From contig CP036272.1 of NCBI GenBank assembly GCA_007745635.1, positions 4,416,050 through 4,480,049 of the forward strand: a stretch of DNA of 64,000 nt, read 5' to 3'. This DNA comes from Stieleria bergensis (GTDB lineage: Bacteria; Planctomycetota; Planctomycetia; Pirellulales; Pirellulaceae). Positions within the stretch are counted from its first letter, which is position 1, and the number at the start of each line of letters is the position of its first letter. Position numbers and translations under genes: made by a program. Shown here in pieces: positions 11,374 to 17,512 of the stretch. The notes under the pieces were generated by a model, which made no database searches, had not been told where the DNA came from, and worked only from the letters and a program-made list of their open reading frames with translations.

Positions 11374-12117
11374 TTAATCGCCAAGCAGCTCATCAGTGAT
11401 GTTCAGATTGGTGCTGACGGTTTGGATGTCATCATGATCATCCAACTGTTCCAGCAGTCGCAATACTTTCTTGCCCGTGTCTGAGTCGACATCAACGGTG
11501 GTTTGCGGCACCTGGGAGACTTGTTTCATCTCGGCTGCCAGTTCTGCAGCGGTCAGTGCATCGTCCAAGCCATCGTAGTTTTCCGGCGGACAAGTCACTT
11601 GCAGCTTGCCATCGTCGGTGGCTTCGATATCCTCGGCACCATTTTCCAACACCACCTCGGTCAACTGTTCTTCGTCGATCGATTCGGCGTCGAAAACGAA
11701 CAGCCCTTTGCGATCAAACAGATAGCTGACACAACCGGTCTTGCCCAGTTCGCCGCCGAGTTTGCTGAAAATGGAGCGTAATTCCGGAGCGGTGCGATTT
11801 CGGTTGTCGGTCAAGGCTTCGCACATGACGGCAACGCCACCTGGACCATAGCCTTCATAGACCACCTCTTCGACTCGATCGCCGCCCAGTTCGCCGGTTC
11901 CACGCTTAATCGCACGCGAGATATTGTCCTTCGGCATACTGATGGCTTTGGCGTCATCGATCGCCTTACGCAACCGAAAATTCGACGACGGATCTCCACC
12001 ACCGCCTTGTGCGGCAATGATGATCGCTTTACTTAGTTTGCTCCAAAGCTTTCCTCGTGCCGCATCCACGCGTCCTTTGCGGTGCTGGATGTTGGCCCAT
12101 TTGGAATGTCCTGCCAT
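11374..12117 (-). CDS. YebC/PmpR family regulatory / translation factor
   Basis: A 247-residue member of the YebC/TACO1 family (PF01709). It begins with the near-invariant 'MAGHSKWANIQHRKG', followed by 'RLRKAIDDAKAISMPKDNI', 'YEGYGPGGVAVMCEALTDN' and the 'GCVSYLFDRKGLF' block. Members have been described as transcriptional regulators and, more recently, as factors that relieve ribosome stalling at proline runs; which applies here cannot be read from the sequence. It lies downstream of the H1-tailed gene with a 116-base spacer, in the same direction as the rbfA-infB-nusA group. Confidence 0.95.
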   Translation of the reverse strand: MAGHSKWANIQHRKGRVDAARGKLWSKLSKAIIIAAQGGGGDPSSNFRLRKAIDDAKAISMPKDNISRAIKRGTGELGGDRVEEVVYEGYGPGGVAVMCEALTDNRNRTAPELRSIFSKLGGELGKTGCVSYLFDRKGLFVFDAESIDEEQLTEVVLENGAEDIEATDDGKLQVTCPPENYDGLDDALTAAELAAEMKQVSQVPQTTVDVDSDTGKKVLRLLEQLDDHDDIQTVSTNLNITDELLGD

Positions 12118-12233: not shown

Positions 12234-13502
12234 CTAGCGAGGCTTTCGCTTAGAAGCCTTCGCGGCCTTTTTGCTACTGGATTTTGCCGACGATGACTTA
12301 GCGCTTTTCTTGGCAGCCTTCTTAGTGGTCGACTTCTTGGTGGTCGACTTCTTGGTGGTCGACTTCTTGGTGGTCGACGAGGAAGACTTTTTAGCAGCCG
12401 CTTTCTTCGTTGCTTTCTTGGTACTGGACTTAGCGGCTGAACTCGCCTTGGTCGTTTTCTTTGCGGCAGCTTTTTTGGTGGGCGCCGACTTGCTGACGCT
12501 GGCCTTCTCTGAAGCCTTCTTCACGGCCGCCTTCGTGGCAACAGACTTCTTCTTGGCGGGCTCGGCCTCGGTTGCTTTTGCTGCCGGTTGGGGTTTTCTG
12601 GCCGCCTTCTTGCTCGAAGCGGTTTTACTCACCGATGCCTTCGCCTTGGACTTGCTGACCGATGCCTTGGCCTTGCTTTCCTTTTTGACCTCGGGCGTTT
12701 CGACGGCTTCTTGAACCGCTTCAACTTGCTCCGTTTCACTCTGTGCGGTTTCGGCTTCTTCAGCCTTTTGCTCTTGGCGGCGACGACGTTTCACACGCCG
12801 CATCGCATCCTTCTTACTTTTCTCCCACTCGTCAAACGCGGTGGATGCACCTTTCGTCACCGCATCAAGCAATCCACGCGCCGTCTTACTGGAATGGTCC
12901 AGTATGAGGTCCACGCCCGCTTGATGCAGCAGTGCGCCGAACTCGGTCCCTTTGTTTTTGGGAATGGCGCGTTCCAGGCCTGGCACCTTTCCTGATGCAG
13001 CCTCGTCTTGTGATGCAATTCCGACGGACAACATCACAACCATTGCCGCATAATCGATCGGGATCGAGTGTCCCCCCAAACCATGCTGCGATGTGTAGGC
13101 GAGCACAAACGGAGTGAACGCGGGCATGGCTTCGAACTTGCCGACCGCGACTCCCAGGTTTTCCTTTTTTAGAAAATCCAGATCGAAGCTATAGAATTCT
13201 TCAAAGACAGCCTGCAAGGTTTCTTTCAAGCGACGAGCGGCCTTTCCTGGATCGGGCAAACCGGAAAGCACCTGAGCCAAGTCAGGCAGATTGGTCACCC
13301 GGACCTCATTCCAATCCGTAAACTCTTGCTCACACTTCGCCAAACCCTCATCGGCCAGATCATAGGGCGCATCCTGCAGCAAGCAGGCATACAAGATGTG
13401 CTCCAACAGAGGACGCGAAGGCTGGGAGGGAGGCACCGAGTACTTTTTCTTCAACTCGGTGTGCAGCTTGGTGATCAGTTTGGCTCGTGCGCTTGCTGCC
13501 AT
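12234..13502 (-). CDS. Endonuclease-III-like (HhH-GPD-like) protein with histone-H1-like Lys/Ala/Ser/Thr tail
   Basis: The 422-residue protein has two parts. Residues about 1-225 read like a degenerate HhH-GPD DNA glycosylase: 'LLEHILYACLLQDAPYDLA' resembles the start of the EndoIII core, and 'MPAFTPFVLAY...GGHSIPIDYAA' (126-152) aligns with the helix-hairpin-helix plus catalytic Asp segment. Asp150 fits the conserved Asp, but the catalytic Lys position appears to be Phe, and the C-terminal 4Fe-4S cysteines are absent. Residues about 230-422 are a very basic, low-complexity tail rich in KKA, KKS and KKSTT, resembling bacterial histone H1-like proteins. A 15-base DNA repeat encodes part of it. 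The gene sits just after rbfA. A DNA-binding or compacting role is inferred; the fold match is by eye. Confidence 0.7.
   Translation of the reverse strand: MAASARAKLITKLHTELKKKYSVPPSQPSRPLLEHILYACLLQDAPYDLADEGLAKCEQEFTDWNEVRVTNLPDLAQVLSGLPDPGKAARRLKETLQAVFEEFYSFDLDFLKKENLGVAVGKFEAMPAFTPFVLAYTSQHGLGGHSIPIDYAAMVVMLSVGIASQDEAASGKVPGLERAIPKNKGTEFGALLHQAGVDLILDHSSKTARGLLDAVTKGASTAFDEWEKSKKDAMRRVKRRRRQEQKAEEAETAQSETEQVEAVQEAVETPEVKKESKAKASVSKSKAKASVSKTASSKKAARKPQPAAKATEAEPAKKKSVATKAAVKKASEKASVSKSAPTKKAAAKKTTKASSAAKSSTKKATKKAAAKKSSSSTTKKSTTKKSTTKKSTTKKAAKKSAKSSSAKSSSKKAAKASKRKPR
12325..12378. repeat. 15-bp tandem repeat inside the H1-like tail
   Basis: The unit 'gtggtcgacttcttg' is repeated 3.6 times and encodes KKSTT on the minus strand. 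The near-perfect DNA identity suggests recent expansion by slippage. Confidence 0.9.
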
Positions 13503-13637: not shown

Positions 13638-14063
13638 TTATGCGTCTTCATTCGGCTGCGTGTCATCATCATTGGCTGCAGGCGATGGATCCGTTGGCTC
13701 AAAGGCGTCTTCCGGATCTTTTTCCCGACGGATCTTGCCAAGCAGTTCACCGACGACCATCGCGTTTTCCATGCCGCGATTGAGTTCAAAACGCAACTTG
13801 GGAGTGTACCGAGTATCGATACGCCGCGCGATCTTGGATTGCAGGAAGCCGGCGCTGTTTTGCAGCCCGTGCAGTGTCAACTGTTTCTGAGCTTCTTCGC
13901 CCATGACACTGACAGACACCACCGCCTCACGCATATCGGGCGTGACTTCGACACCGATCACGGTCACGTCTTTGACGCGCGGATCACGAATTTCCGTCAA
14001 GATTGCCGAGGCGACGACTTCTCGAATCGCTTCTGCGGCTTTTAGTGTTCTGCGACTTGGCAC
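13638..14063 (-). CDS. rbfA: Ribosome-binding factor A
   Basis: RbfA assists late maturation of the 30S subunit near the 5' helix of 16S rRNA. The 141-residue protein starts at a GTG with 'SRRTLKAAEAIREVVASAIL' and contains 'EIRDPRVKDVTVIGVEVTPD', 'QLTLHGLQNSAGFLQSKIA' and 'RRIDTRYTPKLRFELN', the standard KH-like fold blocks. The last 30 residues are an acidic Asp/Glu/Pro tail. It is downstream of infB, the classic nusA-infB-rbfA order, but with a 365-base gap. Confidence 0.95.
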   Translation of the reverse strand: MPSRRTLKAAEAIREVVASAILTEIRDPRVKDVTVIGVEVTPDMREAVVSVSVMGEEAQKQLTLHGLQNSAGFLQSKIARRIDTRYTPKLRFELNRGMENAMVVGELLGKIRREKDPEDAFEPTDPSPAANDDDTQPNEDA

Positions 14064-14428: not shown

Positions 14429-17400
14429 TCAATCGAGCTTCCGAGCGAATTCTTCGATTCGGTAAGCTTCCAGGACGTCGTCTTGCTTAATGTCGTTGAA
14501 GCCCTGCAAGCGAATACCGCACTCCATCCCTCGCGGAACTTCCTTGACGTCTTCTTTGATACGCCGCAAGCTATCCAGTCCATAATCACCAATGGTACGA
14601 CCGTCGCGGTGGACTCGAATTCGGCAACCACGGTGAATGGCCCCCTGCAAGACGTAACAACCGGCAATGGCACCGACTCGACTGATCGAGAAGACCTGTT
14701 TCACCAGAGCACGTCCAAGTTCGACCACTCGTTCTTCGGGTTTCAAACGGCCTTCCAACATCGCTTTGATGTCGTCGGTCAGCTTGTAGATCACGTCGTA
14801 ACGTCGAATCTCAACCCCACGGGTATCAGCGGCTGACCTGGCCTGTTCATCAGGGATCACATTGAAGCCCAAGATGACTGCGTTTGAAGCATCGGCCAGA
14901 GTCACATCGGCGAGAGTGATTCCACCGACGCTACGCTGCAGCACTTTGATATCGAATTCTGGATGATCCAGCTTGCTGAGCTCTTTGTCGATCGCTTCCA
15001 AGGAACCCTTCACATCCGCTCGGATGATCAGATTCAACTTGACGCGTTCTTCGGCTTGTCCCAAACGACCATCCTGCAGCAATGACTGGAAGTCGTTGAA
15101 GGAAACCTTGGTCGTGGTCCCGGAAAGCGATTCACGACTGCTGGCGTCGGCACGCGTCGCGGCGATTTCTCGAGCGTCCGCAATGTCGTCCAGCACATGG
15201 AATCGGTCACCAGCCCCCGGAGGCGCCTCCAAGCCCATCACGCTCACTGGCGTACTTGGACCGGCTTCTTCCATCGGCTCACCAGTCAGCGTATTGTTCA
15301 TCGCACGCACACGACCGTAGGTCGGACCGCAGACGACAACATCGCCAACACGCATGGTTCCGTTTTGCACGATCAGCTTGGCGACCACACCGCGGTCCCC
15401 TTGCTGTTCGGATTCCAAGCAAACGCCCAACGCCGAGCGACTGGGATTCGCTTGATATTCGTTCAGTTCAGCGATGGTCAGCAATGTTTCCAGCAGTTCA
15501 TCCATGCCGGTGCCCTTGGTGGCACTGGTTCGAACCACTTCGACATCACCGCCCCATTCACTAGGCGTCAATTGATGTTCGGTCAACTGAGTCAGCGCTC
15601 GGTTGGGATCCACGCCTTCCAAGTCAATCTTGTTCAAGGCGACGACAATCGGCACTTCAGCAGCTTTCGCGTGACTAATGGCTTCTTCGGTCTGCGGCAT
15701 GATTCCATCATCTGCGGCGACGACCAAAACAGCGATGTCGGTGACATTGGCACCACGGGCACGCATTTCGGTAAACGCTTCGTGACCCGGCGTGTCAACA
15801 AAGGTGACACTCCGTCCATCTTTTTCGATTTCGTAGGCTCGAATGTGCTGGGTAATCCCGCCCGCTTCGCCACTGACGACATTGATGCCGATCAAGTAGT
15901 CCAACAAGCTTGTTTTCCCGTGGTCAACGTGGCCCAAGAAGGTCACCACTGGAGGTCGACTGACCAAGGAATCCGGATCATCAGCCTGATCTTCGATCTC
16001 GTTGATCAACTCGTCTTCCAGAGTCTCGGCCGCCTTCAACTGCAACTCAAGGTTCAACTCGGTGGCGATCAATTCAGCGGTTTCGAAGTCCATCTCCGCG
16101 TTGATGTTCCCCATGATCCCTAAGGTCATCATGGCCTTGAGAACCTGAGCCACACCGATACTGGCCGCTTCAGAGAAGCTTCGCACCGTACAAGGCAATT
16201 CAATCTGAACGGGCTCTTTTCGAGGCGCCGCGGTATTGGTGCCTTTGTGTTGCAACGTTCGACGATGACCATACCGATTCCCATCATCACGACCGAAGGA
16301 GGACATGTCTCTGCCACGGCGACGCTTGCCACGATCGGCTCGGGCGCTGGCCATGCCGGCCAAACCCTTCTTGCGCGGCCGATCTTCTTCTTCGGTGGCT
16401 CCGCCACGCTTCCCTTTGTCAGTGAAGCCCGAAAGACCACCGCGTTTGCCAGCAGAAGCTGCTCGCTTTGTTTCATCTGTGGTGTCAGCAGCAAGTTTCT
16501 CCAGCGGAGCCTTCATGCCTTGCTTGTGCCCGGCAATCAATTCCCGGCTCAGCTTGATCTCAGGCTTCTGAGCCTGTTGCTGATCCTTTTGCTTTTGCTG
16601 CGGTTCAGCAGGAGCATCAGGAAGCGATGCCAAGTTGACTGAAATCCGTGGCTCGCGACGCTTGGATTTGCCTTCAGGCTTTTTGCCTTCTGACGGCGTC
16701 TGCGATCCACTGCGACCATCTAGCGAACGAATGCGCCGACCATCGCCACCACCGCGAACAGCAGTCGGTGTGCTGCCCATTCCACGAGCAGACAACGGAC
16801 CGGGTTGAGAGGGAGGCAAGGGTTTACTTGGCTCACTCGCAGCCTTGACCTCTTTGGCTTTTACATCCGCAGCAGGCTTGGGTTTGCGTACTGGAGCCGC
16901 CTTGGCCGCCGGACTGCTTTCCGTCTTAGGCCTGGCTCCACCCTTGAGCCGTCCGGCGAGTCCGCCAGCGGCACGCGTTGTCGGTGGCAACCTGACATCG
17001 GGAGATTGTGCAGGAACCGGATCGGCCGCTGCTGGAGTTTGCTCAACCGGTGGCAGTGCGGGAGTGCGAAGACGGGGTGCCGGCTTGGTTTCGGGTTCGA
17101 CAGTTGCGCTCTTGGCAACCGGCTGGGCTGGCTCAGCTGGCTTGGCTGGTTCAACTGCCTTGGCAGGTTCAGCAGCCTTGGCAGGTTCAGCAGCCTTGGC
17201 AGGTTCAGCTGGCTTGGCTGCTCCAACAGCGGCCACTTTGCCGCGAGCGGAGAGATCCACCGGACGCCGCTCAGCGCGAACGGTATCACGGACGGCGCCC
17301 ACAGGCGCAGCTTCCGTCTTTTTGGCGGCGGGTGCTTTGGCTTTCTCAGAAGCCTTGGCCCCACTCAGATGATCGCGCACACGTTGCACCTCCTCATCGG

Positions 17401-17512
17401 AAAGGCTGGCCAATGCCGACCCTTTCCCGGTGATGCCTACTTTCTTAACGAGATCAACCAGCTCTTTACTATCGAGATTCAGTTCTTTTGCGAGCGCGTA
17501 AATGCGTGCCAC
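14429..17512 (-). CDS. infB: Translation initiation factor IF-2
   Basis: IF-2 is the GTPase that brings fMet-tRNA to the 30S subunit and promotes subunit joining. The 1027-residue protein starts at a GTG with the IF2_N motif '[19 protein letters not shown]'. A long disordered region of about 450 residues follows, rich in Ala/Pro/Lys and containing 'AEPAKA' repeats. The G domain begins near residue 530 with '[12 protein letters not shown]', then 'DTPGHEAF' and 'NKIDL'. Domains II-IV follow in normal order. The linker is longer than in E. coli. It lies between nusA and rbfA. Confidence 0.97.
17160..17213. repeat. 18-bp tandem repeat in the IF-2 linker
   Basis: Three copies of 'ttggcaggttcagcagcc', the last slightly diverged, encode the AEPAKA hexapeptide repeat on the minus strand. 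Confidence 0.85.

Follow-up and report, generated by a model that had tools for sequence, protein, structure and literature searches.

The window, a stretch of 64,000 nucleotides of the Stieleria bergensis genome, encodes a 422-residue protein (open reading frame 12234–13502, minus strand) which is well supported as a derivative of endonuclease III (EndoIII) without conserved catalytic residues. Judged from its sequence, the protein is likely to be non-enzymatic, and it belongs to a large planctomycete family of apparently dead repair enzymes, many of them with similar basic tails. The explanation that we favour, at a little under an even chance, is that of an old planctomycete family of pseudo-glycosylases, relatives of EndoIII that would no longer cut DNA and would have been kept for binding or docking, with the DNA of the nucleoid slightly favoured as the target. 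This explanation is supported by the EndoIII fold, the variable catalytic sites, a nearly invariant DWNExR motif, a recurrent basic tail and a place in the genome beside rbfA or yebC. As the fold, the motif and (in many) the basic tail recur in homologues, the observation is not one of chance.

An EndoIII fold with altered catalytic sites

Residues 1–212 (12867–13502; this and all features below lie on the minus strand) form a degenerate endonuclease III (HhH-GPD) fold, as the AlphaFold model, Foldseek and profiles matching both EndoIII-1 and E. coli Nth show, and a long charged helix in the same model (residues 219–265; 12708–12848) joins this fold to the tail. The model was predicted with a pLDDT of about 90 for residues 1–230. 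Foldseek comparison of the model with the PDB gave 433 matches at E up to 10, 13 of these at E up to 0.001, and all of the best 50 of the 433 were HhH-GPD proteins; among these listed matches the top one was Deinococcus EndoIII-1 (E 5.4e-7) and bacterial EndoIII entries reached 0.54 to 0.66 in TM-score normalised to the target. When searched singly by sequence, the window protein was recognised weakly, with the PDB EndoIII-1 found at E 0.015 and the NCBIfam model NF053634 (DR2438-type glycosylase) matching residues 1–223 at E 1.7e-5 with 24.5 bits, against a curated cut-off of 400 bits, which places it outside the DR2438-type family. Pfam gave zero matches up to E 1, PF00730 (HhH-GPD) included. 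With Pfam and PADLOC yielding no match and NCBIfam only this sub-threshold match of EndoIII-1 type, none of the families searched describes the protein.

Two profiles were used, A2 from 15 rows of close relatives and A5 from 79 rows of broader relatives. Profile A2 matched EndoIII-1 in the PDB at E 1.4e-4, and fell short of significance when aligned with E. coli Nth alone (hhalign probability 1.0, E 0.054); profile A5 matched Deinococcus EndoIII-1 at E 3.8e-28 over profile positions 4–209, and E. coli Nth with an hhalign probability of 98.1. NF053634 matched 61 of the 79 family members at E up to 0.01 and PF00730 matched 2 of them. The all-helical EndoIII fold of the HhH-GPD superfamily, which the first-pass annotation had read by eye in the N-terminal half, was borne out by both Foldseek and the A5 profile, and the structural likeness that it had proposed as a check was found. 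The best match in both sequence and structure is endonuclease III-1 of Deinococcus radiodurans (PDB 4unf, 8a5f), which we take to be DR2438, the protein of NF053634. Deinococcus EndoIII-1 possesses both catalytic residues, Lys and Asp, and, over the aligned stretch, the cluster cysteines, whereas of these the window protein has only the Asp; unlike EndoIII-1, it carries a basic tail and the residues NExR.

When A5 was aligned with E. coli Nth, Lys120 of the E. coli enzyme stood opposite Phe132 (13107–13109) and Asp138 opposite Asp150 (13053–13055). A 106-row alignment of planctomycete homologues agreed at both sites, as did the A2 alignment for Phe132, so that the window protein has Phe in place of the catalytic Lys of an endonuclease III and an Asp in the expected place, both as first annotated. 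The remnant of the helix-hairpin-helix (residues 126–137; 13092–13127) reads MPAFTPFVLAYT, aligned with LPGVGRKTANVV in E. coli Nth; here PAFTPF replaces the G-h-G hairpin with both Gly lost, and Asp150 of the GPD loop is retained. The 106 homologues, which include near-identical proteins (e.g. L001–L003), comprise 16 loci from a contig scan, 30 more taken directly from a search of the phylum (the window's own included) and 60 taken by region.

Across this set the catalytic Lys was present in 1 of 106 proteins, the Asp in 57 and both together in none (0/106), the sole Lys-bearing homologue (L076) having Ser at the Asp position. The Lys site was occupied by F in 41 homologues, A in 14, Y and W in 9 each, H and G in 6 each and L in 5, and more rarely by S (4), Q, E and D (3 each) or K, M and T (1 each). 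The Asp site held D in 57, T in 13, S in 9, N and E in 7 each, H in 4 and P in 3, with A in 2 and Q, F, I and L in 1 each. It is this lack of a constant residue at either site that argues against catalysis. Most close relatives of the window protein retain the Asp; in one homologue (L019), whose genome falls into the same family group, f1, as that of the window, Asn is found there. T, S and N, the commonest replacements of the Asp, are also able to cap helices, so that this position may have a structural and not a catalytic role. A catalytic Lys at an adjacent position, raised in the first-pass annotation as the sign of an active glycosylase, was looked for and rejected, as a K within aligned positions 130–135 occurred in 12 of 106 rows with no fixed place.

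No Cys of the window protein lies opposite any of the four cluster cysteines in the A5 alignment with E. coli Nth, two of the four falling in a gap, and the four-Cys iron-sulfur pattern of an endonuclease III is absent from it, in agreement with what had been read by eye. The pattern C-x(5-9)-C-x2-C-x(4-6)-C was kept in 34 of the 106 homologues. An HhH-GPD protein without the cluster, the clusterless MutYX (PDB 8uuc), was among the Foldseek matches listed; it differs in being of MutY rather than EndoIII-1 type, and its structure is that of a complex with an analogue of an abasic site opposite 8-oxoG.

A conserved motif and a basic tail

The most conserved motif of the family in the 106-row alignment is DWNEVRVT (residues 63–70; 13293–13316). 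The highest weighted frequencies were those of Arg68 (1.00), Asn65 (0.99), Glu66 (0.92), Leu96 (0.92) and Asp63 (0.91), with the acidic position 74 also conserved. Arg68 was present in 106 of 106 homologues, and 102 of 106 fitted a loosely written DWNExR-type motif. EndoIII-1 shares the DW with which this region begins, and the window protein has the NExR part in addition; no DWNExR-like motif stands at the aligned place in the Nth of the same genome. As the catalytic sites vary and DWNExR is nearly invariant, constraint appears to have moved to a new site, and we read the motif as a new contact surface, a purely structural role being the alternative.

The residues Arg61 and Tyr100 of EndoIII-1, mutated in PDB 8a5f and 8a5c, presumably contact DNA. 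Asp or Asn was found at the position aligned with Arg61 in 54 of 106 homologues, with a register uncertain by one position, and Asp or Glu at that aligned with Tyr100 in 45 of 106, where Tyr itself was found in 6; the second hairpin Gly was kept in 10. Counted up to residue 205, the core carries a net charge of −6 in the window protein, with a family median of −2 (range −12 to +16); the corresponding values in the same genome are +5 for Nth and +6 for the MutY core. Members with the cluster had a median core charge of +3 and those without it −4, which suggests that the cluster-bearing members are less altered. With a core that is net acidic and with eroded DNA-contact positions, binding to nucleic acid would probably rest on the tail.

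The tail (residues 266–422; 12237–12707) is a disordered stretch of Lys, Ala, Ser and Thr with an H1-like composition that ends in KRKPR; pLDDT was mostly below 50 for residues 270–414 of the AlphaFold model. Residues 226–422 consist of 27% K, 21% A, 17% S and 10% T, and a 15-bp tandem repeat (12318–12378; 4.1 copies, 97% match) encodes STTKK units within the tail, so that the H1-like tail made partly of DNA repeats, as first annotated, was confirmed on both counts. The long, basic, Lys/Ala-rich and disordered tail is of the H1-like or HupB type. In close relatives its length and order vary and its richness in Lys stays, with a C-terminal KPR or KPK in 18 of 21 proteins (L001–L016 and L018–L022). 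A basic tail (at least 25 residues, net charge at least +8) was present in 75 of 105 homologues, and in the other 30 of 105 the tail was missing, short or not basic; by a stricter rule (at least 30 residues, at least 20% Lys) 66 of 106 had a tail. The part after the core reaches 335 residues across the homologues. As 30 of 105 do without a clearly basic tail, the core function of the family cannot depend on it.

Basic tails were found in 58 of 71 homologues without the cluster and in 17 of 34 with it (Fisher p 0.0012, a statistic that ignores descent). A tree of 79 domains, from which the cluster region was left out, gave at least 9 changes of the cluster and at least 15 of the tail, with 20 of its 76 inner branches starred; the descent-corrected independent-pairs test of cluster against tail had too few pairs and no power. 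Neither cluster cysteines nor tail are present in L049, L052, L084, L104 and L127–L129, which keep a DWNExR-like motif with M for N in L104 and E for D in L127–L129.

Tails of this type are known from other bacterial proteins. Mycobacterial HupB likewise combines a folded N-terminal domain with a long H1-like Lys/Ala tail, and the tail is needed for its association with the nucleoid (PMC5676037). Its N-terminal domain is HU, whereas that of the window protein has the EndoIII fold; lacking an HU domain, the window protein is not a HupB, though it has a folded domain and an H1-like tail. Chlamydial Hc2 and bacterial H1-like proteins share the Lys-rich short repeats, the Hc2 type varying in size through repeat number (PMC2848022); the window protein differs from these by its folded core, derived from EndoIII. 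From the composition of its tail and the precedent of HupB and Hc2, we infer that the window protein binds nucleic acid via the tail.

Gene neighbourhood and possible roles

In the window the genes run in the order infB (IF-2; 14429–17512), rbfA (13638–14063, directly upstream), the window gene and yebC (11374–12117, directly downstream), all on the minus strand, and no terminator-like site of that strand was found in the two gaps. By targeted phmmer counts, RbfA was encoded upstream on the same strand at 52 of the 106 loci, the gap having a median of 66.5 bases, and YebC downstream on the same strand at 43 of 106, some with genes between (median 13 bases to the start of the open frame, with nine loci at least 0.9 kb away). 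Both were found at 20 of 106 loci, either at 75 and neither at 31, with RbfA or YebC on the opposite strand at 0 of the 106; a homologue of IF-2 was found at 52 of 106. As the flanks extended for some 1.5 to 4 kb and were in places cut short by the end of a contig, these counts are lower bounds. The association with RbfA or YebC spans 31 of 48 family labels, which mix NCBI names with group codes, so that some families may count twice. Pfam scans of neighbours covered machine-picked open reading frames, some of them doubtful genes (68/68 upstream, 89/112 downstream), and gave ribosomal protein S16 in 5 of 68 and SRP54 in 2 of 68 upstream. In the machine-picked frames flanking L039–L107, hisG was seen downstream in 14 of 89 and xdhC upstream in 5 of 68. 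The translation of the N-terminal part of infB in the window (16861–17364) has repeats of EPAKA type.

Codon adaptation, measured against a reference set of three genes with EF-Tu among them, was 0.53 for the core, 0.578 for the whole window gene, 0.574 for rbfA, 0.592 for infB and 0.768 for EF-Tu; that of the tail (0.637) is confounded by composition. The value for the core is ordinary and gives no sign of the high abundance expected of a major nucleoid protein.

In the explanation that we favour, a relative of EndoIII would have lost its enzymatic activity, its tail would neutralise and bridge the nucleic-acid backbone without sequence specificity, as is thought for bacterial H1-like nucleoid tails, and the dead core would serve as a folded docking module via the DWNExR patch. 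For the target we lean slightly towards DNA of the planctomycete nucleoid over RNA, the nucleic-acid readings being divided almost evenly between the two. The nucleoid of Gemmata obscuriglobus is described as highly condensed, and by 2012 no histone homologue had been reported from planctomycetes (PMC3440768). Counting against this explanation are a core that is net acidic and without the DNA-contact features of EndoIII, the translation-factor neighbours, two HU-type genes already in the genome and separate from the window protein, the 30 of 105 homologues without a clearly basic tail and the ordinary codon adaptation. The first-pass annotation had gone further and proposed a repair-derived DNA-binding fold turned into a nucleoid or chromatin-like protein. 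The derivation from EndoIII stood; the fold as the DNA-binding part and the nucleoid as target are less certain, given the eroded contacts, the acidic core, the translation neighbours and a tail that is not constant in the family. A further reading would be a planctomycete chromatin protein made from a dead EndoIII: with catalysis lost, and in many lineages the cluster too, the protein would have acquired a conserved surface of a new kind and, more than once, a tail like that of a linker histone, and would now help to compact the nucleoid or link it to translation. We hold this to be less likely than not.

The steady translation-factor neighbours are the main reason to consider an alternative in which the dead EndoIII core, along with its basic tail, would be an RNA or ribosome factor and would work alongside RbfA, IF-2 and YebC in translation or in the assembly of ribosomes; we hold this to be a real though lesser possibility. 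It draws on the recurrence of RbfA, YebC or either on the same strand across families, on S16 or SRP54 upstream at other loci and on a core that has lost the DNA-contact features of EndoIII. The neighbour YebC is an RNA-binding translation factor which in Streptococcus pyogenes cross-links to 23S rRNA (PMC12234827). However, that genes lie in one operon says little about a common pathway, and the homology detected in sequence and fold points to DNA-repair proteins. The H1-like type of tail, moreover, is best known from proteins that condense DNA. A good deal less probable is retained enzymatic activity, in a monofunctional glycosylase that has Phe for Lys and whose chemistry is done by Asp150 or another residue. 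MutY and the thymine-DNA glycosylase Mig are monofunctional HhH-GPD enzymes without the Lys, and the Asp is kept in over half of the homologues (57/106) and in most close relatives. Sis-HhH-GPD of Saccharolobus islandicus, an HhH-GPD protein without the catalytic Lys and Asp, is an active alkyl-base glycosylase with Glu134 replacing the Lys and with the Asp site occupied by Ser152, its cluster cysteines taking part in activity (PMC11754123), so that losing Lys and Asp is alone no proof of inactivity. In the present family, however, the Asp site varies, the Lys site has no fixed substitute like the Glu of Sis-HhH-GPD, and both the hairpin Gly and the aligned DNA-contact positions are eroded. 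Just as improbable is that the tail is low-complexity drift, its charge the product of repeat expansion without selected function while the core does something else; the 15-bp tandem array, the variable length of the part after the core (up to 335 residues) and the 30 of 105 proteins whose tail is missing, short or not basic would fit this, but basic composition recurs in 75 of 105, and 18 of 21 close relatives retain the KPR/KPK terminus.

On the pseudo-glycosylase explanation, a repair-enzyme fold would have been retained for a task outside its ordinary chemistry. If the protein binds the nucleoid, it would offer a handle on the condensation of planctomycete DNA; if it binds the ribosome, it would be a new translation-linked factor.

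Distribution in planctomycete genomes

Profile A2 matched proteins in 194 of 294 planctomycete genomes, one per genome, and 90 of these 194 were examined, mostly among the better matches. Profile A5 matched 292 of 294 genomes of the phylum, ordinary Nth included, and for this reason the narrower A2 figure is used. Occurrence once per genome, often by rbfA or yebC, points to a basic cell function. On the breadth of the fusion, which had been put forward as a further check, the family proved widespread and the tail not constant within it. A contig scan across phyla for close relatives found 16 loci, all of them planctomycete. A signature protein of the PVC group, the small CT421.2, is common to Chlamydiae, Verrucomicrobia, Lentisphaerae and Planctomycetes. 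In the genomes of group f44, most of them 99–100% complete, A5 matches were weak (best E about 4e-18 to 2e-12), of the kind that ordinary Nth might give, and the pseudo-enzyme family may be absent from this group.

Origins outside the chromosome and other special cases were tried and rejected. In tblastn searches with residues 1–223 at E up to 0.01, no match was found in 72,556 plasmid records or in 50,697 phage records, and a role in anti-phage defence found no PADLOC match for the window protein. Stop-codon recoding was considered for flagged G019, G192 and G191 and their unflagged neighbour G236, where the stops are the ordinary ends of tailless proteins.

Among the literature searched, no paper was found combining Planctomycetes, endonuclease III and histone H1, and none of the matches listed was recognised as describing the window protein. 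In the passages covered, an essential-gene mapping of Planctopirus limnophila, a planctomycete amenable to genetics, does not mention the window gene (PMC10632474). The genome of the window has three other HhH-GPD genes, read as Nth-, MutY- and AlkA-like, so that repair chemistry is covered elsewhere. Its Nth (G000:C1:3330694-3331098, L108) keeps the Lys and the Asp, with a C-terminal cysteine spacing of CTARGCDGTVCEMC, which differs from that of E. coli Nth.
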